Assembly (NCBI RefSeq): GCF_000003815.2
Contig: NC_049991.1
Coordinates: 15,745,247-15,809,246, forward strand
DNA length: 64,000 bases
Source: Branchiostoma floridae
Taxonomy: Eukaryota; Chordata; Leptocardii; Amphioxiformes; Branchiostomatidae
Direction: 5' to 3'
In this document: piece by piece, positions 13,401-46,396 of the stretch
How the letters are laid out: every line of letters begins with the position of its first letter
Numbering within the stretch: position 1 is the stretch's first letter
Position numbers and translations under genes: made by a program
The notes under the pieces: generated by a model
The model's database searches: none
Told to the model about the DNA's origin: nothing
What the model saw: the letters and a program-made list of their open reading frames with translations, nothing else

Positions 13401-15422
13401 GAAAGAAATTGAGTCCTTACTAAGTTAGCAGACAGCCTGAGAGCATGGCTAACTCCCAGGTTGTTCATGGTCTCATAGCGACTGCCGGCCTTGACGTACA
13501 GGGCCACTCTGGACACAGGGGAGTTGTTCTCCAGGGAGGCAACCACCATGCCATTACTCAGCTTACTGATCTGTGGGAACAAGACAGGTTTATTCTGTAT
13601 CTGTATCTGTATCTGTATCTATATAGCCAGTATAACTGCCGTTCGGCGTAACACACCAGCTTATTATCATTCAGTGTCAATCAGATAAAGTACGAAGAAC
13701 GGAAGCAGACTTTTTATACTGGATTCCATCAAGTGTGAAGTTGTAACCATATGGTGCTCAATACCAATATTGAGACTATGAGAGGCAAGCCAAGATAGCA
13801 TAAGACCAGTCTACTTTTCTGAAGGTTGATGTTGCAATTCAAAAACTTTTCTTAAATGTTATACTTAACGTAAGACACTTCAAGATTTGTATGACACTAG
13901 TTTTTAAACCATGCCCGTAGCTAGGATTTTGGTTGGGGGGGTTCTTTTTGGTACTTGTGGGACCATCGAGCGCCGCAGGCGCGAGACTCACGCCGAAGGC
14001 GTGAGCTGCCTAGGGGGGTCCGGCATGCTCCCCCGGGAAAAATTGAAATTGAAACCCTCTGAAACGCCATTTCCTGCATTTTGACGGGCAAAATTCGCTG
14101 GCTAAGTTTAATGGAATTTCTCATAAAATACACAAGGTTTTTGGCATAAGTCTTTGAGGCCGACTCCCCCGACATATTTTCACCATGTCCGATACCAAAG
14201 GCGGGAGGCGTTGCAATGGTGGTTCGGGGAAATTTTGAAATCTGGACCCTCTGAAAAGCCATTTCCTGCACTTTCTGGGGGCAAATTTTGCTGATAGACT
14301 CACTAGGATTGAATGAAATGTCTATCGGTGAATAATGCAAATCAGTCATGCCTTTGGAAAAAAATCTTGGACATGAAAAAGTGGACCTTTGAGCATGAAA
14401 AAGTGGACCTTTGAGTGTGAAAAAGCGGACCTTGAGCATGTGGGGGGGTCTTCCAACCCCCCAACCCCGGATGGCTACGGGCATGTGAGCTGAGGAGAAT
14501 GTACCCTTCTTCTACAGCATATTAGCAGGACAATTTACACCTCAGCTATAAGTAACAGGACAGTTTAAAAGTAAATCTCTACACTCTTGTTACCTTAACA
14601 GCCTCCTTAGGCAGGGGGGCCGGAGGGGCGGCAGTGTGGGCCTCTTTGACTGCAGCCTGGGTCGACTGCAGTCGTCGCTGTCAGAAGAAGGAAACGTCAA
14701 CATGTTAAACACATTTCTTTTGTTTTTATTATATACTGTACAGAGGAACCAGTTTCCTCTATGAAGATTTCTATTCCGAGAACTACTATACTGTACAACT
14801 TTGTCACTGGAATAATGTCATTGTACACAGTGCATTCCACACAAGCATACACGTCTTCTCATATTACATCAACTAATATGAGCTCTTTACCTTGACCTGA
14901 AATGACCCCAAATGGTGACTTATTCGTGACGCATCCTACACATCACAGCTTTCATAATCTTCTCACTACTTAATACACTTTAATAGAATGTTCAATATAA
15001 TATAATTTGTGCCATATCTGACAGAGAACGTCCATGATTTTGGGATTGAAAGTTACCACTGACTTTAGCAGCTAAGTATGTTACTTGTGACATAGAAAGT
15101 CCAGTATATTAGTATTGTTGGTTGGATATTTTGTTGCGTACCTCTAATATATAAAAACGTTATCAACTGTATGAGAAAACGTTACGATCTCCTTTCCAAT
15201 AAAATTTTATGGATGTACTTCTGGCAGATGCCTCATGACATGACCTTCGAATCTGCGCCCGAAATGAGCTCTTTTCCACGACATCGCTATAAAGAAAAGT
15301 ATTCTGACGAGCTTTTAACACTCTCATCTGTGCAGCGTACCTGTATAAAGAGAAAAGAATGATTATATCTGGTCTGGAAGGACATAACTTACGGAAAGTG
15401 GCCGCAACAACCTCGATGCCAT
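7469..15422 (-). CDS. UQCRC2: UQCRC2, cytochrome b-c1 complex core protein 2
   Basis: Matrix-side core subunit of mitochondrial respiratory complex III, of the M16 peptidase fold. Fourteen coding exons on the minus strand: 15422-15393, 14677-14594, 13570-13421, 13137-13073, 12747-12691, 12485-12361, 11957-11860, 11414-11357, 10887-10789, 10331-10129, 9687-9607, 9101-9025, 8140-7987, 7555-7469. All junctions are GT-AG, phases agree, and the sum is 455 codons plus stop (human about 453). The N-terminus [16 protein letters not shown] is a typical arginine-rich mitochondrial presequence. Recognisable segments include [39 protein letters not shown] (no zinc-binding HxxEH, as expected for core 2), [23 protein letters not shown] and the C-terminal [17 protein letters not shown]. 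Introns hold a 5S-headed SINE, a tRNA SINE beside exon 13, and an exon-derived minisatellite. Confidence 0.97.
7790..7978 (+). mobile_element. tRNA-derived SINE in UQCRC2 intron 13
   Basis: The head resembles a tRNA with an A-box-like TAGTGGTCTGGTGGTAAG (about 7796-7813) and a B box GAGTTCAAATCC (7846-7857). About 100 bp of body and an AAATAAATAAAAAATAAAT tail follow, ending at 7978. It is antisense to UQCRC2, and its tail stops 8 bp from the 5' splice site of exon 13 (exon edge 7987). Confidence 0.65.
8172..8636. repeat. 81-bp minisatellite derived from the UQCRC2 exon 13 acceptor
   Basis: Four identical 81-bp units (8172-8252, 8253-8333, 8334-8414, 8415-8495) are followed by one diverged unit (8496-8576) and a partial one (8577-about 8636). 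Each contains GCAGCCTTCAGCTRGCTYCT, matching the 5' end of UQCRC2 exon 13 (8108-8140) plus adjoining intron. The array therefore multiplied an exon-intron boundary. On the gene strand each unit repeats an acceptor-like TGTRYAG before exon-like sequence. Because 81 is a multiple of three, the plus strand happens to be open throughout; this is not a gene. Confidence 0.9.
10443..10562 (-). mobile_element. Penelope-like terminal fragment in UQCRC2 intron 9
   Basis: The minus strand shares CTGCAGTACAATGTGAACCA and the terminal CCAACCTGA motif with the fragment at 20740-20880. A GGTGA/TCACC hairpin sits where a hammerhead stem II would be, but the core bases are mutated. Confidence 0.5.
11583..11800 (+). 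mobile_element. 5S-rRNA-headed SINE in UQCRC2 intron 7
   Basis: The head resembles 5S rRNA, including the box A region (GGAAGTTAAGCAA, 11630-11642) and box C (TTGGATGGGAGACC, 11653-11666). A non-5S body follows with CGTCTTCCGGGAGGGACGTA and GAGGTCGACCACGTTAAA. That organisation is characteristic of 5S-derived (SINE3/Deu-type) SINEs known in chordates. The 5S part is diverged and truncated, so it is a SINE, not a 5S gene. Confidence 0.7.
13586..13624. repeat. (TATCTG)n microsatellite
   Basis: Several hexamer units lie in UQCRC2 intron 2, 15 bp from the exon 3 acceptor. Confidence 0.7.
13911..14484. mobile_element. Inverted-repeat element in UQCRC2 intron 2
   Basis: The termini are ATGCCCGTAGCTAGGATTTT and the complement of the right end (GGATGGCTACGGGCAT), each followed by a G-run/C-run. 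The interior contains a tandemly duplicated segment with CCCTCTGAAAMGCCATTTCC (near 14055 and 14248) and three copies of a GAAAAAGTGGACCTTTGAG-type unit near 14374-14430. The long minus-strand open frame inside is not supported as a gene. Confidence 0.65.
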
Positions 15423-15804
15423 GGCTTTGCCGGGACAAAATGGCGGACACTTGCGGAAAGTCCCAGGATGCAATGTAATCCGCAGGTCAAAGACTTAACA
15501 GACTATCCCATTAAATGACAGGTTTGTAATGTTAATAAGTCGCTAAAAAGAAATAAATAAACATATATTATAGAGATTAAAAGTTACATTAGATATTTTA
15601 TTAATAAATATTTAGTATATTTTATTTATATTTTTCATCGTATTTGACTTTTTTGGGTAACAGAACTCTTATCGAAATTTGGTAGTCTCCTAAAATATTA
15701 GTGGTACATCCTTAAAGACCCAAAGGACTTGCAGGACGTCTGTTTGCGTAACTGGCGTTGTCTCCCTTCGCAAAGGTCACCGACAGGTGTTCTCACGTTT
15801 AGCC
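15423..15804. promoter_or_regulatory. Shared head-to-head promoter of UQCRC2 and RETSAT
   Basis: The two divergent start codons are 382 bp apart. ACAAAATGGCGGAC at 15435-15448 matches a YY1 site just upstream of the UQCRC2 start, a common feature of nuclear genes for mitochondrial proteins. CGGAAAGT nearby could bind an ETS factor. The central part (15530-15660) is very AT-rich. Confidence 0.5.
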
Positions 15805-18800
15805 ATGGCGTTCGTCGCAAACGTCGCCGCCTCCCTCATGTCCAGCCCGGGCCTGTTGGTCCTGGTGGTGGCTCTGATCGCCTTGGTCCTCATGGTAACG
15901 TCGAACAGAAAGCCTCGCGGGAAGAACCCGTTCGCCACCGACTGCAGGAGGCCGGCCGCTCCGCTGGTCACGGACCAGTCCGCCAGAGACCGAGTCATTA
16001 AAAATGGTGGGTATGGGTACAGAGTTCACTCAAAGTTCTGTCGGAATGGCGCAGTAAAAGGACAATGTAAAAGGACAACTCTTACCTGTGTAGCTAGTGT
16101 ATCTTGTTTTATCATATGTTACAGCAAGGTATCATGATGTCTCAGATGTGTGAGAAGAAATTGCTTATAAATTTGATAACTGTATAGTTTGTGTTTCTCA
16201 GCAATCATCTTTTAACCTCCTAATATTTGACCTTGTTATAATATCACCAGTCATGTAGAACTATAGATCATGACAAATTGACTAAGATCTAGAACAATAA
16301 CAATCTAGAGCAGATGGTGTGAAATCCTTGTGGGAAGTAACAACAGAACAATACAACAGAGCGTATCTCATCTACAGCACAGGGCAATGCTTGATGTAAA
16401 CAGAAAAATGATAAGTATCTGCTGCATGTTGATATGAAGTGATTCACAGTTCACTGTGGGTCACACGCGCGGCACAATGGAATCCTGCGCTGCAGGTGTC
16501 CTGTAATAATTCCTGACCATCGCTTACAATGATAGCCACATGACCATATACTAGTAGTATTGTCCTTAATCTAAAGCAGGCCTTAGTTAAGACTTAACAA
16601 TTATTACCATCTAGGTTTCGCCATCAAGAAAGTGCCAGAGACCCTGGATGCCGTAGTTGTTGGCAGCGGAATCGGGGGGCTCGGCGTGGCGGCCATGATG
16701 GCGAAGGCTGGGAAGCGAGTGCTGGTGCTGGAACAACACGACCAGGCAGGGGGCTGCTGCCACACCTTCATCGAGAAGAGCTTCGAGTTTGATGTTGGTG
16801 AGTTGGGTTGTCATGGCGATGATGAATACTGTGATAATTGCCATGACAACAACTTTTTAGGGTTTCTCAAAATGACAATCAAAATGATTAGCCTGGTATC
16901 CAGCCGTATTATAGCTCCCGAGTCTCTTTTGTCCTCTTTGCAAATAAGAGGACAGAAGAGACTTGGGAGCTATAATACCGGCTGGATACCAGACAACAAA
17001 ATGATCCGAAGGGGTAGAAACAAATTGTGACTTTCCTTTTATTTCAACTGCTTACTTATTTGTTTAGACAAAAACTATCTCATATTTATGTCTCACTACT
17101 ATATTGGTCCTGCCTGTGAGGCTGTGATATTCTATTCAACATTTCAACTTCAATAGTACATTTATTCATTTTTTTATCTTCCTAATTTCATGATCATGTG
17201 TTGTCTCCTGCATTTAGGTCTATCAACAGATGTTTACTACAGTACACATTAGTGTTGTTTTTGTTGCCATGAACCATTACATTTTTTCAAAGGTAAAAGA
17301 CTGAAGTAGCCTAGGTTCCAGCCTCTTCTTTAGAGCATATCAACTTAAAAAGGCCAGCACCCAGGCCAAGATAGAAGAATATGATTTTGTGTTGACAGGT
17401 GTCCACTACATAGGTGAAATGTGTGGGTCCACTCTGAACAAGGTTCTGTTTGACCAGCTGACAGAAGGCCAGCTTCAGTGGGAGAAGCTGGATGATGAAT
17501 TGGATGTCGTCTCACTTGGGGCTGAAAATGTAAGAAAATAAAGAAAGAAAGAGAATGCAATGTACTATGTATTTGTTTGGAAACATATAGGGATATCTGC
17601 AACATATGGGGTGTCAAGGGATTCAGCAACTTCTGTTCAGTCTTCAATTAAAGGATACAGTTTCCTTGAATTGTGAGTTTTTTTGTGAATATGCTTGTAT
17701 GCTTACATTAGGTTTCAAGTGTCTTTCTGCCCTGTGTATGATTATCTATGCCTGAAAATATGTGGGACATACTTGTCTATTTTTTCAAAAAAGCATAGTT
17801 GTGTAACAATGTATTCATGTTTTCCATGAATAGAGTTTCTCATACTTGTTTGTTATAGTAGCAATGAGTAGGATGGATGATTCTGTAACCATGTCTCTTG
17901 TTTCTAAACAGCCAAGGAAATTTCCCATTGTCCAAGGAAATGAAGCATTTAAGAAGGCTCTTCTGGAGAAGTTTCCTGATGAAGAGAAAGCCATCGACGG
18001 CTTCTTGCTGTTGCTGAAGGTTGGACATTATTTTTGCACTGTCCTACATACTGTAAATGCATTTAAGTTCGCGGGGATTTAATTTCGCGGTAGCGGGAAA
18101 ATGGACTTTTCGCGGTGGTTTTAATTTCGCGGTAGCACCATGCACTGTAGTCTCTTACTGTTATGGAAAAATGTTCGCAGTGGTTTTAAATTCGCGGTGA
18201 AGATGCTGCCGCGAAAACCGCGAACATTAATCCACCGCGAACATTTCTGCATTTACAGTAGTCTTTATCCTATCTAAAGTGTCTCATTGCTGGTTGTAGT
18301 ACACTTACCGGTACAAAAGAATAACTTATTCCATAACATCATGTCAAAGGTCACAGTAATTAAATCACTTCTAAGTTGTTGCTGTTCTACCTGTGTATTA
18401 AAAAAAATACATGATGTACAGTTATCTTTGAGATCATGGACATTTCTATGTGTTGCTGAGCTTCAAGTTTCTAGTAACCTATGTCGTCTGTGAACAAGTA
18501 TGGATATCAAAATGTGGATTTCTTTATTTCTTTTATTTGGGTTTTTCACATAGTGAAAGGGAGGACAAAACAGGTGCAAAATGCGCCTTTGAAGGCTGCC
18601 CTCCCGTACAAATACTGGATAACGATGCTGAAGGTACTGTATGTCCTCTCTTAACTGTTTTTCTCTTAAATCCACAGAAAGTAAGAAAGAGCATGATGGG
18701 CTATGTTGGGCTGAGGTCCATGCCCCAGTGGCTCGCTAAGCTGCTGGTGAAGACGGGCCTGGTTAACTACATGACTGACTACTTCAAGTACGCTGGCAAA

Positions 18801-21800
18801 TCTGTCAAGCAGACGCTCGATGAACTCACAGACAACCAGGACCTGAAGGCAGTTCTGTCTTACAGCTTTGGGGACTACGGTAAGTAGGGTTAAATGTGCC
18901 ATTCAGGTGGATTGCCAAATTATTGTCATTTTCTGTATAGAGGGGGTAATCAGTAGGAAAATCACATATAGCCTGACATTGAGGTCCGTCTGACAGGTAG
19001 TATCACTAGCATGTACTAACCTTTTAATATGTTCTTTTGTGTTTGATCAATGCACCTCATCGTATTTGTGTAACTTCCAGACTCATAGGTAGGAGGACTA
19101 ACTTTTTTTATTTTCTGAATTTTTCTTTTCTATTTTCTGAATTTTTTTTCCTCTGATGAAAGATATCATCTTAAGGAAAAAAAGATTAATCTAAACTTAA
19201 GAGTTTTTCATGTTGGGCACTGGTATCTGAAAAAAAGTAAGTAAACTCTTCCTGTCCCTGTATCTAGTGAGGGCTTTGTGTGGACATACATGACTGTATT
19301 ATCATACCGCATGTTTAATTTCTTCCTACAGGTACTCCTCCCAAGGACGCCCCCTTCACCATGCATGCCACCCTGATCAGTCACTACTACTACAACGGAG
19401 GGTACTACCCCATCGGCGGGGCCAGCGAGATCGCCTTCCACATGATCCCTGTTATCGAGAAGGCGGGCGGGGCCGTGCTGGTCAGGGCACCTGTCAATCA
19501 AATCTTGATTGATGACAGCGGGGTTGCATGTGGTATGAATAAATTTTCATGTAACTGTAACCTCATACATGTACAACTGCTAATTGTTCAGCGCTTTGTA
19601 ATGTTTCATGTCTCATCTTTTTCAGTACAGTTGTGTTGTGTTGTTGGGGGGAAAAATCACAAATCACGAGGCCTAAAAATAAGACTGACAGGCTGCTAAG
19701 CAGGTCTGTACATGTATAATGTGTACCAGAATCCAGCACAGGTGCTCAAGGAATGGTACTGCACTGTTTTGATAGCAGTCAGCTCTACTACAAGGAATGT
19801 TGAGTAAAAGTCTGAATGCTGTTTTGTATAGTTAACCATGTATGTTTTAGTAAAGAGATGTATAAATTTTCCCCGCAGGTGTGCGTGTCCACAAGTCCAG
19901 TGGAGACATTGACATCCATGCGCCCATAGTCATCTCTGATGCTGGCCTGTACAACACATACCAGTCACTGCTGCCAAAGAAAGTTGCCCTGAAACATGGT
20001 ATACATGTAGAACATTTCTTCATGAAAGCTCATCTTTTTCAGTATATAATTTTAACTGTAATAAAGTTTCAACTGTTGGAAAGGAAAACCTTATTTTTTG
20101 CCCAGTAACAATAATTACATCATTTAATTTGCCATCCAATCCATCCACTTGAAAGTACTGACTGAACTGAACTGAAAGTTAATATAATCAAGGTATTTTC
20201 CACACTGATATGCCTCATTCGCAATTCATTGAATAACCAGGAAAAAGAAATTAAAGATATAACCAAAGATTTTAAACATACAATTTCAGGAGGAAATCAT
20301 TACTCTCAGGAAGCATCCACTTGTCTTTTAATGAAAATTGCCTCTTGATGTCTTCATATGATAGCATCATGTCTTACCCAGTAAGATTAGTATTACAGAC
20401 TAGACTAGTGGTACTATTGAACAAAGTTCCTGAGTTGAAACTGTGTCTATCTGTATTGAAGGTCTGGACAATGTGCTGAGCAAGGTTCGCCATGGAGTGG
20501 GCGCCGTGAGTCTGTTTGTGGGACTGCGTGGCACCAAGGAGGAGCTGGGACTCAAGGCACAGAACTGCTGGGCATTCACCAGTGAGTAGTACTAGTAGAT
20601 GTCACGAACGTTTCGGTGACCGTCTGTCCCATTGGTCCCACATTGTAAATGTTATAATTTTACATAAAGCTGTCTTTTCATATGTAAATATTTTACGTTT
20701 TGTGACCGCATCTGAACTGTGAGCAGTGACACCCGTCTTGCAGTACAATGTGAACCAGTCAGAATTACCCTGAATTGATAGACGGTCCCCGAAATGTTGC
20801 TGAGAATAAAGCAATGGTTGGGTAAAAAAGAGTCTATTCATTCAGTGACATACCAACCTGATGAAACCATTTACGGACCATCAGTTGTTACCAGAACAAC
20901 TTATGGCTTTACCATGTAATTTAGGCTGCAATATACTTTTTCATTCATTCATTCATTCATTCATTCAAGTATAGTCTATTTCATACATTCTGCTGGCAAC
21001 ATTTTATCCATATCATTGCCTTAATTACTGATGCACATTTTAATTTTGTTTGACTTTCAGACAACGACCTTGATGCAGGCTTCGAGGAATATGCCAGTAG
21101 GAGTGCAGAGGATGCTGGGAAGTCTGACGTTCCTCTCCTCTTCATTTCCTTCCCATCATCCAAGGATCCCACCCACGATCAGAGATACCCAGGTAACCAG
21201 GCAATGTGTACATCATGTAACCATGATAAACCTGAAAATATGTTCATAAAGACATACTAGTAATCTGTTTCAAGAATGTACTAGAAACAATGATTCAACG
21301 TGTATTAACTTTTATGCAAAGTTAAGAGTCTTGTTTGATTAACATTAATTGTTCCCATGGAACACAGGTCAGTTATGAGACAGTGAGTAACATGAAACTT
21401 GAGTGAGGAAAGCCCTCTTCTTGATGCAGAGTCTAATTTCTGAAAAGTGGTCAACTGGTATGACCACCCAACAGCTTTGCAAGCACATGGCAGTAATTGG
21501 TTAAAGGGCCTATCTCACCAAGCAGGCACCCTGGAGGCACTGTGGGGTACATTGGAGTTTGTTCACGGAGGCCCCTTTGCACTATTTTAGCCAATTTTCT
21601 CTTGCACTTACTGTGCCTCCAGAGTGCCTCCAGTCAGTGAGATACCACCTTAAGTCACACTGAACAACTTCTGACCCCCTGCCTTCCCCCCAGGCAAGTC
21701 CACCTGCACGGTGATCACCCTGTGCCCGTACGAGTGGTTTGAGCAGTGGGAGGACGAGCGGGTGATGAAGAGAGGACAGGAGTACAAGGACCTGAAGATG

Positions 21801-23359
21801 GCCGTGGCCGCCAGGATCTGGGACCAGACCTGCAGGCTCTACCCGCAGATAAAGGACAAGGTTGGTGTCTGATTCCCCCTTGTGGTTTAGAACTGCAGTT
21901 CATAACTGTACAAGGACCTGAAGATGGCCGTGGCCGCCAGGATCTGGGACCAGACCTGCAGGCTCTACCCACAGATAAAGGACAAAGTTGGTAGCCGGCT
22001 CCCCCTTATGGTTTTGAGAAGAACTGCAGTTAACAACCTTTCAAGTACAATATTTATAAAAACAAATGCAGGCTATGACAGGCAGGCCGGCAGGCTGAAT
22101 AAAAGTTCAAAACTTGAACTATGCGGCACCAGATGTCTTTCTGAAGGACGACTGCAGTGTGCAAGATGTTGGTAGCTTGAGTGATGAATCTACTCTACTA
22201 TAGAAATGCAGGCTTTGACATATGAAGTGACAGTATACACATGTAAATTCACAGGTCTGGTCTGGCTCTTGCAGGTTCAACCATCACTGCATGAAATTTT
22301 GTCTTTGAAAACAGTCCTTCCAGAAAAATGACATGAAATAGATGAAGGTGTATGAAGTGACAGGACAAAGATCAACAACAACTGTCAACTAGTGGGACTG
22401 GAAAAATCTTAAGATGGAGATGACCTGCTTGAGAGTCTTCTTTTTTCCCCTCCCAGGTGGAGTACTTTGAGATGGGCACTCCTGTCACCAACAAGTACTA
22501 CATCGGGGCTCCCCGTGGTGAAATCTATGGGATCGACCACAACATGGCCCGCTTCAGCGCAGACACAGCCATCCAGCTGAATGCTGAGACACCTGTCCCC
22601 AACCTGTACCTGACTGGTAAGGCTTGGGGTACCTTATTGTTTTCTGTTGTTGTGTTGGACAAAGACATGTCATGTTAAGTAGCCTCCTTCACAGACTTCG
22701 AGCAGGGTTGGCTTTGGGGGGTGGGGGTGACTAAGGTTTTCTAATGCCAGAAAAGGCAGCTTGCGGGAAATGGCAGTTTTCAGTGAAAGGGAGTTTGCCG
22801 TGGAAGGAAATTTCAATAGAAAACCATAGTCAACAGTTAAAATCGGGAAACAGTGCCCACCCCCCATAAAATAAAAGCCAACCCTGCTTGAAGTCTGCGA
22901 AGGAAGCTAGATGCAAAGGCTGTGGGCATTAGACTTAGACACTCTCCTAAAAAAAAAACACACGAAAGGTTGCGACATGCATGCAAGATAAGTGAAAGGG
23001 TCAAATACATGTGAGTCAGTGAAAACCCATTGGTGAGTGTCTTGGGTCAGACAGACTGCAGACAATGATGTGCAGGGTTGGACAAGTTTTCTAAAAGTCA
23101 CTTGTCCTATCTGGCAAACACATAAAAAATTTACTTGCCCAAAATAAAGTTTCACTTGCCCAAAATTCAAATACCACTTTCATAGGGCTAGTTGACTTAC
23201 TGAATCCTGTTGTTGCCTTTTTTTTCAGGCCAAGACATCTTCTGCTGCGGGCTGGCCGGCGCCCTGTTTGGCAGCCTTCTGTCCGCTAACGCTGTCCTGA
23301 ACCGCAACGTGATGTTTGATCTGCTGAACCTCAGGAAGAAGATAGCCAAAACCAAGTAA
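15805..23359 (+). CDS. RETSAT: RETSAT, all-trans-retinol 13,14-reductase
   Basis: FAD-dependent ER membrane oxidoreductase that saturates the 13-14 bond of all-trans-retinol. Twelve coding exons: 15805-16006, 16615-16797, 17399-17529, 17912-18019, 18678-18879, 19332-19532, 19879-19998, 20462-20581, 21061-21192, 21694-21860, 22457-22616, 23229-23359. All GT-AG, phases agree, 618 codons plus TAA (human 610). A hydrophobic anchor spans residues about 17-31. The dinucleotide-binding GSGIGG is at residues 84-89 with the partner acidic residue in VLVLEQH (E107), followed by AGGCCHTF. Later family blocks are [36 protein letters not shown], the PYEWFEQW region, and the C-terminal [20 protein letters not shown]. 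Exon 10 is partly duplicated in intron 10. Introns 2, 4 and 11 contain inverted-repeat elements. Confidence 0.97.
16889..16993. mobile_element. Foldback MITE, TAGCCTGG family, in RETSAT intron 2
   Basis: TAGCCTGGTATCCAGCCG at the left is mirrored by GGCTGGATACCAG at the right. The arms pair through TATTATAGCTCCCGAGTCTC. Related ends occur at 24865-24952, 26886-26991 and 43336-43514. Confidence 0.7.
18049..18260. mobile_element. MITE with TACTGTAAATGCATTTAA ends, in RETSAT intron 4
   Basis: TACTGTAAATGCATTTAA at the left and its complement (GCATTTACAGTA) at the right enclose several TTTCGCGGT/ACCGCGAA modules, which give a CpG-rich hairpin. A second member is at 25749-25944. Confidence 0.8.
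20600..20885 (+). mobile_element. Penelope-like terminal fragment in RETSAT intron 8
   Basis: GCAGTACAATGTGAACCAGT (from about 20740) and ACCAACCTGATGAAACC (about 20851-20868) match the fragment in UQCRC2 intron 9 and the end of the element at 1165-1610. An inverted, decayed partner segment begins near 20600. Confidence 0.5.
20939..20968. repeat. (ATTC)n microsatellite
   Basis: About seven tandem CATT units lie in RETSAT intron 8. Confidence 0.75.
21782..22037. repeat. Tandem duplication of RETSAT exon 10 3' half and its donor
   Basis: The segment 21782-21907 is repeated at 21908-about 22037 (126-bp offset). The copied exon part (21915-21986) is intact for 24 codons in frame, but its last base has changed from G to A at the donor (AAG|GT to AAA|GT). 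Confidence 0.85.
22680..22909. mobile_element. MITE, TAGCCTCC family, in RETSAT intron 11
   Basis: The left end TAGCCTCCTTCACAGACTTC is mirrored by the complement of the right end, with a roughly 36-bp terminal repeat including CAGGGTTGGCTTT. The interior GGGAGTTTGCCGTGGAAGG resembles the elements at 25105-25372 and 39264-39502. Confidence 0.75.
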
Positions 23360-24864: not shown

Positions 24865-24952
24865 TAGCCTGAGTACCATCCTATTTCTACCGGGGCTCCT
24901 TAGGGCAGCGAGTGTAAGGAGACCCGGTAGAAGTAGGATGGTACTCAGGCAG
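24865..24952. mobile_element. Foldback MITE, TAGCCTGG family
   Basis: TAGCCTGAGTACCATCCTAT is mirrored by GTAGGATGGTACTCAGGCA. The arms include ACCGGGGCTCCTTA. Confidence 0.75.
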
Positions 24953-25398: not shown

Positions 25399-28173
25399 TC
25401 AGATGACAGTTTCCCGCAGTATAGACGTGTTGTCGGCCATGTTGCTGCCACTGGAGCTCATCTCGCTGGACGTGTAGGCAGACGACTCCTCCACCACGAT
25501 GGTCTCTCCTGTCAGGGAGTCTGGAATTAGGGAGGGAGGAGTTTCATTATGTGTCATTATGTCATACAACATCAACTCACAGACATTGGCTAATCTCCAA
25601 GTTGATGTATGAAGTTATATTTTCCACTAAAACACTGCAACACTCTGTGAACTCATCAACAACATCCTACTGACAACTAGAATCTGGAACTCATCACCAT
25701 AGCACATTGTGACTCTCAGGAATAGACAGCAGTTCAACAGTATAGAACTACTGTAAATGCATTTAATTTCGCGGTAGCGGGAAAAAGGACTTTTCGCGTT
25801 GGTTTTAATTTCGCTGTAGCACCATGCAGTCTAGTATCTTAATGTCCTGGAAAAATGTTCGCGGTGGTTTTAAATTTGCGGTGAAATGGCCAACGCGAAA
25901 ACCGCGAACATAAATCCACCGCGAACATTTCTGTGTTTACAGTAGTAGAAGAAAAAAATATTGCCTCCCTGACTGCTACCTAAAAAGTCTGACCGTTTCC
26001 AAAATCTATTCTTGTAATGGAATGTACCTTATCTTATTCACCCACACACTGTAATCGTACTTCTGCTTTATCCTTATAACCTGTACTTAGCCTAAGAGCA
26101 TAAACATGCAAGAAAACTCACCAACAGAGATGCCGTGCTCCATGGCCCGTGGAGTCTTGTCACGCCTCCTGGTGTACCGGATGAATACTGCAATAGCCAG
26201 CACCAGTACCACACCACAGGCGAGGCCGATCGCAATCAGCTGCCACTCCAGTGCCAGTGGGCTTGTTGTATCCTGGCTCTGGGTTATGAGCTGCATGGAT
26301 GGTGATATTGTAGTGCCATTGCTACTGACTGTGGGATAGGAAGAACATGGGTTGGCACAATTTGTTTCCTTCTGGTATGCAACATTTCGGAAACTTTAAA
26401 TACCAGATTTTACAATACAGATTGAGATTCTTTTGGCTTATTTTGTGGCAGATGTGGCTGTCAGAAATGGCACAGTATTAAGTCATGCAATCAGAAAACA
26501 ATACATGATAGCCACATATAAACCCAACCCAAGCGAATTGTCTGATGGAGAGAGAAAGAGAAGAAAAAAAGTGCATTTAATAGCACGCATGAAGACTTTC
26601 TTCTACATATAGTATATTGAACAATATTTTTATCTAATGCGCGAATAGGTAGGTTCCTTGCTTTACTGAAGCTGTTGCAGAAGAATGGGATTTGTTCAGG
26701 ACCATGCATTAAGAAGATGCAAGGTTCTTGCCCAACCCCGACTTGATTTGATTTGATTTGATTCTTGTACCTGAAAATATATCTGGAACGGGTGTTGTTG
26801 GTTCCGCTGAAAACACACAAGAACAAAACAGTTTGAAGGAAGCAGAAAGCCTTGAAAAATAAATCTACTGCCTGGGAACCCTTACTAGCCTGGGTACTAT
26901 TCAATTTTTACCAGGGCTCCTTACACTCGCGTACTTGCGAGGGTAGCGAGTGGAAGGAGCCCCGGCCGAAATCGGTGGGTACCCAGGCTTACTACTTGTA
27001 TTCTTCAAGCTGTCAAGCGGAGGTTTCGGTCGGGAGAGGGGGGTGATCGCGATTCTTCATCTACCAGGGAGGCATATCTCGTGTTAGGTTGCTTTGCAAA
27101 TACATGTGTATATGAGAACGTGGCTTTATCGATCTTTACCCCGATTTTTACTTTTTACAAAGTAATAAGTGCTAATACTGATAGTAAGGCAACATTGTCG
27201 CTTGCATGTCCGATACTACGTCACGTAGTGTGACGAAGTTTACATAGGTTTGACTCGCACCCCACGCACCGGCAACTGTTCTTTTCAAACGTGTGGTACA
27301 TGTATCTCCTTCAATAGCCATGAAAGTCGCAGGACTCAAGTTCCTCTTGTATTTTCGCGTTATGACGTCTTCAGGTGGGGATAGGGTTACAGAAGGCGGG
27401 GTCGTGCTTGGGAAGGGGGGTTCGATGCTCTATGTACTTGCTGAGCGAACGGGGCAGCCGGAAAATGTTACGGGTTTGCTGCTAAGATGTTTTGTCCGAA
27501 CATCTGCTTGGCGATAATACCGCTTGGCCGTGACGGAAGTTAGTCTACCCTTGAACCCTGTGTGAAGAGGGGCGGGTCATTAACAATTATGAGGAGGGGG
27601 GCGTATGATAATGGAGACTACTTTTCTGCCGAGAGGACATCCTTGTAAAACATGACGTACCAAGGAGGTTGGAAACTCCGCAAGGACGTACAAATTACTT
27701 GAAATTCAAACAACTTGTATTCACATATACTATACAATTGCTTATTTGCATACATAACACATGGCACCTGTATTCTCTTTCATGCATTTATATACAACCA
27801 CGTATTACTATTGCTATCACTGACGTGAAGGAGATCTTTGCCAGCCAATATAACAATCGCTACAAGCTTCGCCTGCAACTATATGTTCAGAAGTTGATTT
27901 AAGACATGCTTCACAAAGGCAGACGTTTATACATTTGCAATACACTTCAGGTAATGGCCTACGGTTACTTTTACTCGTTTATATATATACAATGTATATC
28001 GTTTTACCACTCACATCGGTGGATATTAAGATGCATGGGAACGGGAAAAATAAGTTCTACTTACGGCAGTCGTCGCAGTGTGGGTTGTCCGGGTACTTGA
28101 TACAATCCGAGCATGGTCTACAGCCGAGGATATCGTCATACGCCCAGTCTAGATCACACAGTCGGGAGCTCAT
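25399..28173 (-). CDS. Small Fn14/BCMA-like TNF-receptor-type membrane protein (paralogue A)
   Basis: Four coding exons on the minus strand: 28173-28065 (36 codons), 26806-26771 (short stalk), 26328-26122 (membrane) and 25520-25399 (tail plus TGA). All GT-AG, all junctions phase 1, 157 residues. The extracellular part is one cysteine module with C6, C18, C21, C24, C33 and C36. The spacing 11-2-2-8-2 nearly equals that of TNFRSF12A/Fn14 (12-2-2-8-2) and resembles BCMA. YDDIL precedes C18, recalling the DxL region of BAFF/APRIL receptors. There is no signal peptide: an in-frame TAA lies six codons upstream of the ATG, so type III topology is likely. N52 is a glycosylation sequon. The membrane segment is about residues 78-98, then RYTRRR. 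The C-terminus RETVI fits a class I PDZ ligand. The family call is inferred from spacing. Ligand unknown. Confidence 0.72.
25749..25944. mobile_element. MITE with TACTGTAAATGCATTTAA ends, in paralogue A intron 3
   Basis: Same family as 18049-18260: identical left end and matching TTTCGCGGTAGC and ACCGCGAAC modules, with an AGTA right end. Confidence 0.8.
26886..26991. mobile_element. Foldback MITE, TAGCCTGG family, in paralogue A intron 1
   Basis: TAGCCTGGGTACTATT is mirrored by GGGTACCCAGGCTTA, with the GGGGCTCCTT/AAGGAGCCCC arms shared with 24865-24952. Confidence 0.75.
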
Positions 28174-28363
28174 CTTAGTGAGGACGGCTAGTTAAGCGGC
28201 TTTAGTCCCAATGAGCGACCGCAGAATGGCAGTGTGTACTCGGAATAACCACAGAGTGGTTCAAAGTCATTGGCCAGATTTTACCGCAGCATGTTTCCGT
28301 CAGGAAGTCACAAAGTCAGGTCCGTGCTGGAGGGAAAGTGTGGTGGTGTTGCATGCAGTTCGA

Positions 28364-28387
28364 TGACTCACCGGTCTAAATGAGTCA
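28364..28387. promoter_or_regulatory. Pair of AP-1-type motifs upstream of paralogue A
   Basis: TGACTCA (28364-28370) and TGAGTCA (28381-28387) lie about 190-215 bp upstream of the start codon at 28173. Motif matches only. Confidence 0.4.
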
Positions 28388-31034
28388 AAACTTCCGAGAA
28401 GCTGAAAGCGTTCCTGTAAATGGGAACAATCAGGTGGTTTCAACAATAAACAGTTGTTCCGCTTCCTCTCATTTCCGTACAGGGTCGACCGTACTAATTA
28501 TATTAATATTATACCAGTATACCCATTGAATAAAACTTAATATTGAGTGATTTCCTGCTTGCCAGAAGGATGTCTAGTTTATTGGTCGCGCGGATATCTA
28601 GGCTTCTGTAGAAACTTATTCAGTCAATCTGTGTTCTTTCTAACGTTAGAGTTTATCCACCCCCTCTCACAGAGTAGTCTGTTTGTATGGACTATCAATT
28701 CTGCTTTAGGCGATGGCGAATAAACAGAACATTCAGTACGTGTGGGGGCTGTTTGCTCAAATTTTTGTGACACCCACACATTTCAAAGCTACATACGAAA
28801 ATGCAAGTTATGGTACCTAACAAACAAGATAGACGCCCAAAGCCTAGTCCGTTGTACAGTAACAAGAATGTTTTCAACTTAGAATGCTATCAACTACTAG
28901 TTGATAACACAGCACTAGAAGTAGTACATGACATGACCGTGAGTGACCCCTAACTCTGTTCCGTGTACAGCGTCACTACAAGTACAACAGTACAAGGTCG
29001 CCGTGCCCATACCAATGCGGTCATGATCTGTGTGTTTGTAGTAGTACCGCGTACAACAGCCATTTGTGCGTTATAAGTTTTCAGTCCCGCAGAGTTTCAT
29101 GTATATTATGTCTGCAGTGTAGTATCTAAGTTTTGGTCTTACTAGACGAAACATCTGTCCGACAAGAAAACGCCCCCTTCCTACTTCATATACCATTGCT
29201 GTGCATGTGGAGTCGTGACCGAAACTGGCGCAAACTAGGTCACTTTCGGTTGGAGTAATGTGGTTGCTAAAGTTGGGTGGGTTGAGCAAAAAATTGGGGA
29301 TGTATACAGACAAACACTGCTATTGTAAAGCCTGTGTCAAGTTTCATGAGATCGCTGAGTGTTTGCGTTTCTCTCCTTATGCGGAAGTCGTAACATTACA
29401 TGATCTTATATATATATTATGACGTTCCCGTGCCCGGCAGTTTGAAGGTTGTAACTGTGCCGTAAATGTCAGAATCACACCCGTTATCGTCTTAGGGCAT
29501 AATAGGGCAATAAAAAAGTATGTTTAAAATACATTGAAATACGTTCATTTCTGTGAAGTATTCATATACTATAATATAGGTCTCTTTGTGAAGATGATGT
29601 AAAGCTTTAGGCGAAGTAACCATGATCTCTTAATGAGGAAATCCCAGTTTTATGCTGCACATGTGTCATATATATTATCGCTTCATCAAGGAAGCGAAGT
29701 GATTGAACTGAAGATTTTTGTCGGGGATGTTTTTAAGAATCCCATTCTGCAAGATACCCCGTTAACTTTTCCCCGTTCCTGCATAGTCAGGATCACGGGA
29801 CTCTAGACTTGTAGGTCCGTGATTGTAAACAATACACGTGGGCCAGAGGCAGCGATTGTTGGCGTTGTGCGTTTGTACATGTGTCATCATATCAGGCACA
29901 TCAAGGAAGCGAAGTGATTGAATTGAAGACTTTTGTCGGGGATGTTTATAAAAATCCCACTCTGAAATATACCTCGTTTAACTTTTCCCCATTCCTGTAT
30001 AGCCAGGATCACGGGACTGTAGACTTGTAGGTCCGTGACAGGAAATAAGCAACTATTGAAAAGTTCAGTGACCTTCTGTATGACGTGTGACAAGGAGGGT
30101 GGTGGTGGGGGATCTACCCGCCGATCTACTGAACTTCCTCGCGCATGCGTGATGTGGCCTCAAAACTCTCTACCTCACGTTATCAATATGTTTTCCTCGT
30201 TCCAAGTCCTCGCTTTTTTACAGTATTACTGTGCAAAAGGTTCAACACCTTTACTACGCAGAATTAACACCTTGGCTTACAAAGAACCGTTCTATAGCTA
30301 CGCAGAATTAAGACTTCGTGAGTGACTCGGTTCGCTGAACTGGGTTGGCCAGGGGATTCCCCGGGGAAGTCCTGGTGAACCCGGAAGTAATAATTCACAT
30401 TGGACACGCCGGCACAGGTGCATAACTCTTGACAAAAAGTTGATACTTGGTACACAATATACGCTGCATCAATGCGCTACTGTTATACCTTACATGTAGG
30501 TTGTGTTTATAGATCTTTAATACACGCATGGAAGTCAATTTGTAATCTGAGCGCCGTGATAACACTCAAGAAATAACGTTACCAAGACGACGTCCAGAAT
30601 TTAAACTTTAATTTTTCCTACAATGCAGAATATACAAAACTGGCAAAAAAAGCCTTCTATACGACACACATTGAATCATCATTTGGACTTTTCCCAATTC
30701 TGGGTACACAAATGGAAAAGTACCTCGGGACCATGCTTCGTAAAATACATTTCCTCTCTTGCTTTTTAATACTTTAGTCTATGGTTTCACCTTAAAGTTA
30801 CGTCACAGAGGCTATTTACAAAAGGCACGGTCGATGTAGCACCGGGCATTGGACATGAAGTACATTGTGTACATGTACAATTGGTATAGTGAGCGTTGGG
30901 TGGTCTTTAATTTTTTTCTTTTTTTGCAGCACGCCTCCCAAACCACAACCGGATCGGTAGGTGAATAACTCTATCTATCCACGTCACTCATAAGATCTCA
31001 TAAGTACTGCACAGTACCGGGAATTACATATATC
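28388..31034. other. Spacer between the two receptor-like genes, with a direct repeat
   Basis: No exon I can support. The segment 29684-29822 is repeated at 29899-30038 with about 90% similarity by eye. Shared landmarks are CATCAAGGAAGCGAAGTGAT and CAGGATCACGGGACT. CGCGCATGCGTGA near 30140 resembles an NRF1 site but has no gene beside it. Confidence 0.6.
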
Positions 31035-31153
31035 CTAATCTCCAAGCAGATCCTACGGTGCCATAAGATAGTATCAAAGCTGGCCAAGGAGTATAGCCGG
31101 CTACCGTGGGTTTGATACTATATTACGCCACCGTGGATCTGCTTGGAGATTAC
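31035..31153. mobile_element. MITE, TAATCTCCAAGCAGATC family
   Basis: TAATCTCCAAGCAGATCC at the left is mirrored by GGATCTGCTTGGAGATTA at the right. Interior blocks are GGTGCCATAAGATAGTATCA and GTTTGATACTATATTACG. Relatives are at 37349-37552 and 56317-56460. Confidence 0.85.
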
Positions 31154-31765
31154 ACAAATCCTTACTAACAACATACGAGTAACGTTAATATGGCAACATA
31201 GAATTGATATGGCAGCATCTCAAAAGGCAAAAATAAATCAGTTCACAGTTTTCCACAAACTATTTCCAGAGCGGCAGCTTGGAGAGATAGAAAGCTAAAG
31301 TAATACAAGATTTGAATGTGCTGTATACTCTGCGTGGAGCCTGTTTGCATAACGTTTGAGGAAAACTTTGCATACAGACAAGGTTTCTTCTACCAGCAAC
31401 CGAACAACATGCAAGCGGAGCACCGTACCTGTTAATACTATGCAGTAGTAAACTAAAGTTCCTACATCACATGCATGCAGCTTATCGTACCCTGCTCTGA
31501 GCAGGTTAACTAATACTTAGCTGGTATTATATATATAAAAAGAAACTGCAGTTGCACAACGAACGATGTTAAAATGTTTAAGGTGGTGAACAGGGGAAGC
31601 TGTCGCCAAAAAAATACTGATCCGAAAATTTCGGGGAGTAAAATGGCAGAAACCAGCATGCCATATAGGGAATGCACTGTAAAATCTTTGACCTTTGGTT
31701 CAGACTACTGTTTGCTTTCCCATTTTGGACAACTCCCTCCTCGATTCACCCCCAAACGGACACAT

Positions 31766-34700
31766 TTAGGTGAAAGTATGAGAAGAGGCATTAATGGACG
31801 TTCCCTCAGCCGTCTCTCGGATCGGCAGGTAGTCATCCTCCACTGGCTCGAGACCCGCCAGGGGGCGCTGTTCAGCGTCAACTGGCTCTGCAAAAACAAA
31901 ATGGAACAGGTGGATTATTGATAAGTTAGGATTTAGAGTTAGGATTTAGAGTGGGCGCATGTTGTATTGTTCTACAATATTTGCCCTTCCCTTTTCATGT
32001 TACATGCAATTAGCTCTCCAGCAAGAATTTGCAATAAACTATTGTCATTATTATTAGTATTATTCACAAATACTTGCGCCAGACTTTGAACTGGGAACAT
32101 GGCCTAATATCAGCTTCACCAATACTAACGATACATGGGCCCTTACAAGAATCTTTCAAAAGTTTGGGAATTAAATTAAAACCTATTGTTGTATCAATAA
32201 AGCTTGTGAACTTCTAGAATTCTGCAACATAAATTTCCGAATTTGTACGCCTCTAGTAAACTTGAGAACTTTGCTGGAAAAATAGTTGAAATTGTCGGAA
32301 TAGACCTAGAAAGTGCGCTCCTATGGCCGGTTAACTTCTCTATTCAGTCTATTCGGATAATCTCTACTAGATCCTATTAAACTCTTATGTATTTTTCTCG
32401 CAGCCTATGGACTCCGGTAGAGATTTGCCTTGAGTGACAGGTTAAGTACCCACCATGTGTCTGTGTATTTGCGTGGTTGACCATGTATTTGGGTTTGGTG
32501 AGGAGGTCAGCTTGTTCCTGTACGGGTGCCTCCACGTTGTCGGGATGGGGAGGGACGTGTTTCTTCTTGTACCACCACAGGGCGGCTAACACTAACAGCA
32601 GCACCAGCATCACAGCCACGGGCAGCCCCACAGCTAGCACCAGGGTCGGGCTCGCTCCACCTGTGTGAATCATAACAGCAACACGATGAAGTCGAAACGC
32701 TGCTACCAAACTTTCAAATGTTAAGTTCTGTGGCCTTGTATCTAAACATGTTATAGCTGGGTAGTTTTCTAGAATTAAAAGACACCCGTCGGCATCTCTA
32801 ATTAGTTTGGATACCAGGATTTGAAGTTTGTTAAATTGTTACAATGTTACGTTTAAAAATTTGAAATGGGAGTAAAACAATATGGCAGTGTAGTCTAGAC
32901 AACGAAAACAGTGCATTTCTTTTTAAAATGTAGGCTATCTAGAACGTCTAGGCGAAACTCTGTATACTTATTTTGAATATGTAGAAATCAGATCATTGTC
33001 AGCTTTATCCATATGTATTGAAAATCTCACGCAGGCGCTGTAGTTCTGCTATGTAAACAGTGAGAAGAAGAAAACAAACATCGTGGCCGGTGGCCATTGT
33101 TCCAACAAAAAATCAGCGCCGCTCACTCCAATAACAGCGGAATCAGTTCGCAAAGGAGAGGTAAAATAATAGGCGTAGTACAAGGACAAATTGAACATCA
33201 TGCTTCATAATTTTTAAATAGTACGTTATTTCTTGATTATGGGTATGTATTCTATGTACTAGAGAAACGAATTCCCTCATAACAAAATTGGAAATTTGTC
33301 TCTATCGTGGAAACATGACCTAATCGAACTGGAGTTTCTTGTTAAAAAAAGAAAACTAGAGACTCGATAGAAACCATATTCAACACGGTACACCGGAAAT
33401 CCTACGTCCCGGACCTAAGCCCTCAGTTCAAATAGGCAAAATGAACCACGTTCTCTGTGCACGCTGACATACAATTAAATAAAGGGGCTCCTGGTGGTGT
33501 TTTCAACTTCCCCTTTATGTGTGACACGTCAGATATTCGTGTTCAGACTCTACATAATCAAAAAGAAAAGAATAAATCTGAAGAACTCTCGCTTTTTATA
33601 TGCCACTGGAAGTTCCTTCAACTGAGCCTATTGAAGAAATCTATCAGTCTATGTCCTGGTGTGAGCATTTCCATCTGACGTATGCGGATGTGAGCAGAGT
33701 TGTTGGCCTCTGAGCTCATCGCCGGTTTTGTCGCAACGGTAGCCTGAGACGGGAAAACTTACAGACACCACCAGAAAACGAAATTTGCATTACCACTAGT
33801 CAAAACAAGAACATTTCTTGATTCAGGAGTAATTCGTGTTCTTCTCAATCATCCACCAGTAAAATAAATAGTTAAACTGCGCGCCAACTATCAAAATCTT
33901 TCCTTGTTCAATCTGCTGAACTTTGATGGGCTCAGGGAGGGGCGCATACATGTCTGGAATCGCCTCCGTATGACGGCACTATTATGAACCACGCTGTTTT
34001 AGCCTAAAATAATCCAATTACGTACCCTACTAGCCTGGTCTGATAGGGGCTAAATTTATCCTGTACGCTAACTTTAGTTAGGGAGAGAAAGCAACTCCAG
34101 AGATAAACTGTTTGTATCGTCTGTAAATGACGCAAAAGTTTACAGGTAGTTACGCCCTCCCCATGTTTCCTCAAATCAATTTGCGCGCGTTTAAAAACAG
34201 ATTACCAAATCACACGCGGCAAACGGGCACGTCTGAAAGAGTCAAATTAATACCAGAACGTAGACCGCAATACTAATGATCATAAGATTCTACAATCATG
34301 ATGGAGAGTATTTATAAAACGATACAAATTTTCTCCTGCTGTAAAATCTATTTTTCAGCATAACAACCCCGTTTGACAACGTGGCATAATTTACGTCACT
34401 TTGGCGTTTGGAAACTTCATGTAATGATTCGAACCATGTTTCAAAACTCAAATCAAAACTGAATCAACATCTGGCCACTTTTTTTAACAAGACTTAGAGC
34501 CAAATGCAGTGTAATTAGCAAGTCAAATATCATACTAACCTTTGGAAATTTTAATTTCATGTAAATTTACCGAACCCCGGAAAATAAGCATTATTCAAGA
34601 ATTCTGAAGAATTTGAAGGGGCTTTTATCATTTCTAAAGCTTCTTGGACTATCTTACAAACTTATTTGATGCAAGTTTTTATGAGACAGAAATATATCAT

Positions 34701-35087
34701 GATCATACACAGAAGTCATGGCCCCACTCTGTCTGCGGCCGACTAAATTATGGCACTTCGTTTGAAAAAGGGGAAAGTATCCCAACCATGTACCTAGTGT
34801 TCCAGTTTCTACATTGGGACCAAAAGATTAGAGGTTGCTGCTAATAATCTCAACAAGAGCACATGTTGTTCGTGCTGTTGGCTTGATGATATTGATTTTC
34901 TTGGACTGCGGAAAGCTAGTAGTACTGAGGTGGGAGGGCGCGTAGGGAGGGGGGGAAAGGGGGACTTACCCGCGTTCGGGGGGTCCTGAGAAGTTGGGCA
35001 TTGCTCCACACACTCGGGGGTTTCCGGATACTTGAGACATAGCTCACAGCTGTGTATTTTACCGTTTGAATCCACGAATGTAGCCAT
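31766..35087 (-). CDS. Small Fn14/BCMA-like TNF-receptor-type membrane protein (paralogue B)
   Basis: Three coding exons on the minus strand: 35087-34970, 32660-32454 and 31887-31766 (TAA); 148 residues, phase-1 GT-AG junctions. The membrane and tail exons have exactly the lengths of paralogue A (207 and 122 nt), supporting tandem duplication. The cysteine module SCELCLKYPETPECVEQC aligns with PCSDCIKYPDNPHCDDC of A. The membrane segment is about residues 46-68, then WWYKKK. The tail has PVQE (85-88), a TRAF2-type motif, and PVEDDY (123-128), matching the TRAF6 pattern PxExx-aromatic. The start is uncertain. The frame stays open to an ATG at 35255, adding 56 residues with two more cysteines, but an acceptor-like TTTTCCGTACAG ends at 35098, favouring a spliced leader and the ATG at 35087. 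A small stalk exon could be missing. Confidence 0.68.
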
Positions 35088-35090
35088 CTC

Positions 35091-35145
35091 TGAGTCACTG
35101 TACGGAAAACGGGAGCACACAAAATCTAAACTGAGCGATGAGTCA
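35091..35145. promoter_or_regulatory. Two AP-1-type motifs near the paralogue B start
   Basis: TGAGTCA occurs at 35091-35097 and 35139-35145, just upstream of the likely start codon. Motif matches only. Confidence 0.3.
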
Positions 35146-35920
35146 GCGTCTAGTGCAGTGGACCCACGTGGAGCGTAGATTTGGGAGCAAGTGCCGACTT
35201 GCCCCCACAGCTTGGGCGGGGGTCGCCATGGCGGCCATTCATAAAGTCTCGTCATTGGTAGGCATCACGCCTGCTGACCCGGGTCGACCTTTTCATGATG
35301 ATGACTCTTGTTGAGTTGACATGCCCCTGGAAAGGCCACGGCCGGAAATTTTTATTGAATTTGTACGCCTGGAACGGCCTCAAGCGAGCGTGTAAATTGG
35401 TGATTTGAACTGGTTCTCGTTTGCATTGCCCATACATAGCCCATACATTATCCTGTATGATCTTGCATAGGTCCACATAAATTTTCATGCAACGAATAAA
35501 ACTATGGTTCTGAACTATGGAGGTTTATGATAATTGACTGGATCCTAGAGCATCTAATTTCTATAGGTAAACAAGTTTGTTTACATCTGTCAGTTTGTTG
35601 TGACGGGCCAAATCTAGGTCACTGCACGGGGGTCACTGAACCAAGCGGGAAATTTGAAGTTTTGCCCTTTGGCCCATTTGGGGCACAAAGACTGCGAGTG
35701 GCGAATGGAAAGTTCTAGTGGCAGAACATTGTATAATCCTTTTCTCACCTTATCCTTTTTCTTCCAATGGCCAATGGCTATTTTTACTCCCCTTGGGAAA
35801 GTCACTGGAGCATCCCTAAGATCCATACTCCTTAAATCTGTAAAAACTTGAACTTGTGTCTTGCCTGGATTAGGTTGGATCGCACAAATATTGAAGGAGT
35901 ACATTTGGCGGCTTTTCAGT

Positions 35921-46315: not shown

Positions 46316-46323
46316 TATATAAG
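46316..46323 (+). promoter_or_regulatory. TATA box of the neuropeptide gene
   Basis: TATATAAG lies 81 bp upstream of the ATG at 46397, placing transcription start near 46345-46350. That puts the upstream in-frame ATG at 46337 outside the transcript. Confidence 0.65.
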
Positions 46324-46396
46324 AAGAAGCGCCGACTTGAGACGCTATCACAACTGTCTGTCTTGTCTCACCGCACAGTGCAGCAGTACCAGAGAG

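Follow-up and report, generated by a model that had tools for sequence, protein, structure and literature searches.

A predicted minimal TNF receptor gene of the Fn14/TACI type and its probable tandem duplicate in the amphioxus Branchiostoma floridae

Introduction

The tissue-repair receptor Fn14 (TNFRSF12A) and the receptors BAFF-R (TNFRSF13C), BCMA (TNFRSF17) and TACI (TNFRSF13B), which keep B cells alive, are usually treated as vertebrate molecules. Fn14 has a signal peptide, a module in which cysteines 1 and 2 are bonded to each other and a PIEET-type motif in its tail. TACI and BCMA lack a signal peptide, and BAFF-R is a type III protein with four cysteines. Here we describe two neighbouring predicted genes, A and B, in 64,000 nucleotides of DNA from the amphioxus Branchiostoma floridae (contig NC_049991.1, here C13, positions 15745247–15809246; hereafter the window). 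With a probability of about 0.78, A encodes a minimal member of the tumour necrosis factor (TNF) receptor superfamily that belongs to a family of related modules in the genome, and B most likely arose as a tandem duplicate of A that has kept cysteines 3–6.

Human and Xenopus Fn14 resemble A in having one module, six cysteines in register and a short tail, and their cysteine spacing (12-2-2-8-2) is one residue away from that of A (11-2-2-8-2), a similarity that the initial annotation of this DNA had already pointed out. The hairpin of Fn14 is aromatic-Ser, whereas that of A is aromatic-Asp, and neither a signal peptide nor a PIEET-type tail motif, both present in Fn14, was found in A. The second module of TACI and the module of BCMA share with A an aromatic-Asp-x-x-Leu hairpin ahead of cysteine 2 (YDHLL in TACI, FDSLL in BCMA), but they have three residues between cysteines 3 and 4 and between cysteines 5 and 6, where A and nine other aligned modules have two. 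After cysteine 2, the spacing of the amphioxus modules is that of Fn14. BAFF-R, compared here by description and not by sequence, has the same number of cysteines as B, arranged otherwise.

The available part of PMC8024323 places the major ligand contacts of BCMA and TACI at the hairpin tip and describes Drosophila Grindelwald as an invertebrate TNF receptor that has a single module, resembles Fn14 in its C2 part and binds Traf2. Single-module receptors, initially described as best known from vertebrates, are thus not confined to them. Grindelwald is unlike A in its X2 hairpin, in the absence of an Asp-x-Leu motif and in its C2 spacing of 3-11-3.

Results

Structure of the two genes

Reading the window for splice sites and frames gives two small spliced genes next to each other on the minus strand, within positions 25399–35087; both models are predictions on that basis. 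They comprise seven exons in total, and each intron is GT–AG and of phase 1 (Table 1). The extent and the strand given in the initial annotation are upheld, and both gene models hold.

The protein encoded by A has 157 residues and is assembled from four exons. It begins with MSSRL, which is followed by the module CDLDWAYDDILGCRPCSDCIKYPDNPHCDDC, a stalk, the membrane segment and a 59-residue tail. The module contains six cysteines, and the start codon lies five residues ahead of the first of them. Hydropathy, the sole basis for the topology, gives a single membrane segment (residues 80–98, the strongest hydrophobic segment) with the ectodomain ahead of it and basic residues behind. No signal peptide is evident in the module exon. 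Within 8 kb upstream, a crude scan returned two candidate signal exons, located in the 3′ region and in the first intron of B, and we judge both to be unlikely. A Pfam search finds no death domain in A.

The protein encoded by B has 148 residues and is assembled from three exons. Its cysteine part, HSCELCLKYPETPECVEQC, lies near the membrane and contains four cysteines spaced 2-8-3; cysteines 1 and 2 are missing. Of the claim that each gene carries one cysteine module, the half concerning A therefore stands, with six cysteines, and the half concerning B does not. The strongest hydrophobic segment of B comprises residues 46–64. The tail contains PVQE and PVEDDY, which fit the TRAF2/3 and TRAF6 consensus motifs, respectively. 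Shuffled tails contain both kinds in 3.9% of cases and a TRAF6-type motif, taken by itself, in 21%. An additional exon may precede the predicted start of B, where the frame remains open and an acceptor-like site is present (Table 1). The crude scan of 8 kb upstream gives no signal-peptide exon candidate for this gene.

Several repeats accompany the locus. An inverted repeat at 24867–24950 with 36-nucleotide arms (94%) has dispersed copies, with copies of the arms at 26888–26989; it resembles a small transposable element and is situated both beside and inside A. A direct repeat of about 150 bp (29684–29832 and 29899–30048, 87–89% alike, 215 bp apart) lies between the genes. Downstream of B, reading by eye shows an inverted repeat at 31040–31160 (gatccacggtggcgtaatatagtatcaaa and its complement) and a similar stretch near 56354.

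A family of related modules in the genome

We searched the genome (513 Mb, 431 contigs) for relatives of A. The search gives ten matches: three to A itself, three to relatives and four weak ones (E 0.31–7.6). The relatives are situated at C2:17209071–17209175 (51% identity, E = 2.8e-6), C17:12981536–12981667 (42%, E = 0.0024) and C5:19977834–19977959 (39%, E = 0.32). A further search with one of the two C5 proteins leads, in addition to C5 and C17, to four modules on contig C378 and two on C8. Altogether, 14 further module matches are distributed over contigs C2, C17, C5, C8 and C378, some of them in threes; we read 11 of these matches as protein. The pair is thus not isolated.

Cysteine spacing in the C2 exon equals that in A, and no signal peptide is evident there. 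The C17 exon shows the exact Fn14 spacing, 12-2-2-8-2, and its start is signal-peptide-like. Contig C5 carries two neighbouring exons (19977705–19978157 and 19980854–19981363; C5a and C5b), which resemble A in their module and in the phase-1 donor that follows it, but differ from A in having three modules per exon and, as judged by eye, a signal-peptide-like start. One of the C8 exons begins just ahead of its module, and no signal peptide is present there. The donor behind the module exon is of phase 1 in A and B, by eye also in C2, C17, C5a and C5b, and of phase 2 in C8. Acceptor-like sites lie ahead of the start codons of B and of relatives.

The aligned modules follow the majority pattern C-P-x(4)-[WY]-D-x-x-L-x-x-C-x-x-C-x-[VI]-C-x(3)-P-[DN]-x-P-x-C-x-x-C-P. 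Across A and the nine others, all six cysteines are invariant, as is one proline; ahead of cysteine 2, the hairpin of A reads YDDIL and that of C2 reads WDSVL. As far as sequence can tell, A is a member of a small genome family built on one module, with single- and three-module members.

The four Fn14-like module matches on C378 occupy positions 172838–177954 of the minus strand. One of the two that were read has lost cysteines, and the cluster is possibly decaying or fast-changing.

Identity of the module

Taken alone, A is hard to place. At E ≤ 10, Xenopus Fn14 is the single match of its ectodomain among the 177,635 PDB sequences (E = 0.26), and all six cysteines align in register. As a yardstick, a BCMA query finds its accepted relatives at E = 0.13–0.16 and a TACI query at 0.05–0.87, and Fn14 is found by neither at E ≤ 10. 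When Xenopus Fn14 is used to query the open reading frames (ORFs) of the window together with the spliced ectodomains, spliced A comes first (E = 0.017) and spliced B second (0.11), and the exon ORFs of A and B rank third and fifth. Human Fn14 places A second in this set (E = 2.7), and with BCMA and TACI queries neither A nor B is among the matches listed. The score of A against Xenopus Fn14 is reached in none of 2000 full shuffles and in 97 of 2000 in which the cysteines were held fixed. The pairwise signal of A to Fn14 is mostly its cysteine pattern.

The assignment is decided by the existence of related modules elsewhere in the genome. A profile of four vertebrate sequences, aligned automatically, had its cysteines out of register and did not have A among the matches listed; it was replaced by a profile anchored on the cysteines. 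Ten modules were read from C2, C17, C5 and C378 and nine were used, the C378 module with lost cysteines being omitted and those of C8 having been found later. The ten-row profile made of A and these nine finds five of the 177,635 PDB sequences at E ≤ 10, and all five are Fn14 or TACI (Xenopus Fn14, 1.4e-7; TACI, 1.4e-4 and 2.8e-4; human Fn14, 1.5e-3 and 1.7e-3). The nine-module profile, which contains neither A nor B, ranks the A exon first among the 2193 ORFs of the window (2.1e-9) and the B exon second (0.0064; third match, 0.025). Over 264 kb (8806 ORFs), A remains first (8.4e-9) and B second (0.026; third match, 0.074). With the cysteines held fixed, none of 3000 shuffles reaches the real score for A, B, Xenopus Fn14 or TACI, two do for human Fn14 and 11 for BCMA. 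Both C5 proteins exceed the cut-off of the Pfam family stn_TNFRSF12A (41.7 bits for C5a and 38.7 bits for the other; cut-off 24.9), and one of them also exceeds that of TACI-CRD2 (25.3 versus 22.9 bits). On this evidence, A is a predicted receptor gene of the Fn14/TACI type. The comparison with TNF receptor families that the initial annotation had called for thus succeeds with the family profile, which leads to Fn14 and TACI, and fails with A or B alone, for which Pfam gives no TNF receptor family.

That failure is one of several results that weigh against the assignment. With full-length A, 17 of 19 PDB matches are TRPV3 (E 0.29–0.46), and these stand ahead of Fn14, which is eighteenth (1.4). 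Shuffles reach the score of A against human Fn14 in 13 of 2000 cases, and in 527 of 2000 with fixed cysteines; A is not above chance in pairwise comparison with BCMA (466 of 2000 full shuffles) or TACI (437 of 2000), and the score of B against human Fn14 is reached in 245 of 2000. Among the relatives, C17 stays under the stn_TNFRSF12A cut-off (15.0 bits) and the C2 exon has no Pfam match. A genome-wide run of the Fn14 family model finds places on C5, C3 and C378 and neither A nor B; below-cut-off matches of this model also occur in three of 14 prokaryote controls. A motif scan finds no TRAF2 or TRAF6 consensus motif in the tail of A. Not every member of the TNF receptor superfamily requires a TRAF motif or a death domain. 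Finally, C5a lies above the cut-off of the chitin-binding family CBM_14 (24.2 versus 22.1 bits), which we take for a cross-match of a cysteine-rich sequence.

This last match, the lack of a Pfam TNF receptor match for A alone and the weak resemblance of the B exon to growth factor receptor domain IV (18.4 bits in Pfam; cut-off 29.5) would fit a reading of the module as another small cysteine fold, such as a zinc-binding, chitin-binding or growth-factor-receptor domain. Such a fold is nevertheless very improbable, given that the family profile has no PDB matches at E ≤ 10 other than Fn14 and TACI and that C5a scores far higher on the Fn14 family than on CBM_14.

Relationship between A and B

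The motif [KR]YPxxPxC, whose sharing by A and B had been noticed at the outset, occurs once in each gene and nowhere else when all six frames of the window are read. The A–B ectodomain alignment score of 63 is reached in none of 5000 full shuffles and in four of 5000 with the cysteines fixed. The tails of A and B show no similarity (score reached in 1280 of 2000 full shuffles), and the membrane segment begins 25 codons later in the 207-nucleotide exon of A than in that of B. Because of this offset and the unlike tails, the equal exons of 207 and 122 nucleotides, cited initially as strong evidence of duplication, are weak evidence, although their lengths and phases are real; we reject them as proof. 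In our reading, the case for duplication is instead carried by the common module, the tandem order, the strand and the phase.

B has four cysteines in place of the six that mark a superfamily module and, because cysteines 1 and 2 are absent, we class it as a probable diverged paralogue of A and not as a full member. It is probably a tandem paralogue that has lost the first two cysteines. In Fn14 these are bonded to each other, and the loss of one disulphide would be expected for a duplicate, yet it may also reflect decay. A possible though rather doubtful alternative is that B stands outside the receptor family, either as an unrelated small membrane protein or as a decaying copy that has a CxxCxKYPxxPxC stretch like that of A. 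Its four cysteines and the unlike tails would fit such a protein. So would the genome search with B, which gives five matches, three of them B itself and the other two at E = 0.2 and 1.1, with no convincing relative among them, and the best PDB match, ErbB2 (0.3). The profile E-values of 0.0064 in the window and 0.026 over 264 kb leave the support that B has of its own borderline, and the tail motifs are close to chance and count as weak. Together these points weigh against B as a receptor. They are opposed by the ectodomain shuffles, by the second rank of B in both ORF sets with the family profile, and by its intact frames and splice sites, equal phases and tandem position on the same strand as A.

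Relation to Fn14 and to the BAFF/APRIL receptors

A tree of 15 modules has none of its 12 inner branches starred and does not place A; a C378 module groups with Fn14 at 89/83, and B and BCMA sit on very long branches. The sequences single out neither Fn14 nor the group of BCMA, TACI and BAFF-R as orthologous to A.

A direct correspondence of A to vertebrate Fn14, with B as an amphioxus-specific duplicate, seems improbable to us. The near-identical spacing and the position of Fn14 at the top of the PDB matches, both for the A ectodomain and for the family, are in its favour. Against it, the C5 proteins reach higher scores with the Fn14 family, C17 combines the exact spacing of Fn14 with a signal-peptide-like start, and it is a C378 module, not A, that joins Fn14 in the tree. 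The signal peptide and PIEET-type motif of Fn14 have no equivalent found in A.

Only slightly less unlikely is that A and B are counterparts of BCMA, TACI and BAFF-R, as type III proteins that lack a signal peptide and have the aromatic-Asp-x-x-Leu hairpin, B having four cysteines like BAFF-R. No signal peptide is found in the module exon of A, of C2 or of one C8 gene, the hairpins YDDIL and WDSVL resemble those of BCMA and TACI, and the family profile finds TACI at 1.4e-4. Against this, the 2-2-8-2 spacing is of the Fn14 kind, the acceptor-like sites ahead of the start codons leave space for a signal exon, and the tree does not resolve the question.

The neighbourhood of the genes gives a divided answer. 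In the human genome, UQCRC2 and the counterparts of the DNAL4-like and EEF2KMT-like neighbours map to 16p or 22q, as do BCMA, Fn14 and BAFF-R, but those of the RETSAT-, Noggin- and ECSIT-like neighbours map elsewhere. The dynein light chain exon of Table 1 is presumably of the DNAL4 kind, and we take ORFs of C13 near 15698864 (plus strand), 15740575 (minus) and 15908758 (plus) to resemble Noggin, EEF2KMT and ECSIT, respectively, as judged by eye. For counterparts of the BCMA group, HAT_KAT11 (the CREBBP/EP300 family) was expected on the chromosome of the window; it was found on C7, which also speaks against such counterparts. Two further tests of this kind were uninformative: Fox-1_C has no match in the genome and none in the controls, and TNRC6 is located on C171, a small contig. 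We do not claim conserved synteny with human 16p/22q, given the location of HAT_KAT11 and of the RETSAT-, Noggin- and ECSIT-like genes.

A more plausible proposal, though still somewhat short of even odds, is that the amphioxus module family descends from a common ancestor of Fn14 and the BAFF/APRIL receptors, since it joins the hairpin of the BAFF receptors to an Fn14-type second part.

Other features of the window

A scan of the window with Rfam at the gathering threshold gives no matches. The start of a 224-residue ORF at 46271–46942 (plus strand) is hydrophobic (MALPTHLFMLVASACLLPHAAVALP), and two stretches of the ORF end in GRYGKR and SSRYGRRKR; the ORF has no Pfam match and resembles a precursor of amidated neuropeptides of the RY type. 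At 8097–8720 (plus strand), an ORF of 208 residues contains six tandem copies of a 27-residue unit, four of them alike. A third ORF (55064–55984, minus strand, 307 residues) contains AVTPAKSTE repeats and a run of lysines, with no Pfam family above cut-off.

Table 1. Exons of A and B and neighbouring features, in window coordinates
Feature	Position	Strand	Description
A exon 1	28065–28173	-	109 nt; start codon and six-cysteine module (residues 6–36; 28066–28158); ends in phase 1
A exon 2	26771–26806	-	36-nt stalk exon, inferred; phase 1 in and out; acceptor tgtgttttcag, donor gtacaag
A exon 3	26122–26328	-	207 nt; stalk, membrane segment (residues 80–98; 26180–26236), then basic RYTRRR
A exon 4	25399–25520	-	122 nt; remaining short tail through stop codon
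B exon 1	34970–35087	-	118 nt; four-cysteine remnant HSCELCLKYPETPECVEQC, without cysteines 1 and 2
B exon 2	32454–32660	-	207 nt; membrane segment (residues 46–64; 32587–32643), YKKKH, PVQE TRAF2/3-type motif (32515–32526)
B exon 3	31766–31887	-	122 nt; tail with PVEDDY TRAF6-type motif (31829–31846), through stop codon
Open frame upstream of B start	35088–35264	-	acceptor-like site; exon start 35097, 10 nt upstream of start codon
Dynein light chain exon	5341–5694	+	only PDB match at E ≤ 0.01 is 'Dynein light chain 10'; Pfam Dynein_light below cut-off
UQCRC2 (cytochrome bc1 core protein 2) exon	13340–13618	-	database match
Retinol saturase-like exons (FAD-binding)	15694–22675	+	by eye; one exon tested in Pfam, no match

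Discussion

The observation with which this analysis began, a tandem pair of small membrane-protein genes with related cysteine parts, is confirmed, and its first reading, as Fn14/BCMA-like receptors, is partly supported. A probably encodes a receptor that combines a single cysteine-rich domain of the Fn14/TACI type, a single pass through the membrane and a short tail lacking a death domain. In its probable mode of action, the aromatic-Asp-x-x-Leu hairpin and the two-disulphide part that follows it would bind a trimeric ligand of the TNF family, of the TWEAK, BAFF or EDA kind, and the ligand would gather three receptors. Since the tails are short and without a death domain, we favour TRAF-type signalling, in which TRAF adaptors would be recruited by B through PVQE and PVEDDY and by A through a site that our motif scan does not recognise. 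Expression, orientation, ligand and signalling of both proteins are all inferred. Candidate partners are known from lancelets: TRAF1, 2, 3 and 6 are among the regulated genes in B. belcheri in the available part of PMC5752451, and a lancelet TNFSF12-like ligand serves as an outgroup in that of PMC8517431.

For B. floridae, 36 TNF receptor superfamily genes are counted after Huang et al. 2008, as quoted in the available part of PMC12843592; the corresponding part of PMC4979521 gives an alternative count of 10. A and B may already be included in these published counts. In a limited literature search, which does not prove novelty, the available parts of PMC8517431 and PMC7674686 describe no such receptor, and PMC4749565, found with amphioxus and BCMA, concerns a sperm channel.

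The two genes are ordinary in kind and are useful in dating the receptor type. If A carries an Fn14/TACI module, as we predict, the receptor type would be older than vertebrates. If, in addition, Fn14 and the BAFF/APRIL receptors share an ancestor with the amphioxus family, the TWEAK and the BAFF/APRIL receptor lines would trace to one minimal receptor older than both vertebrates and B cells. With a module family present in amphioxus in single and triple form, the dating of the receptor type becomes testable, as do the shared ancestor of Fn14 and the BAFF receptors and the roles that such receptors had before adaptive immunity.

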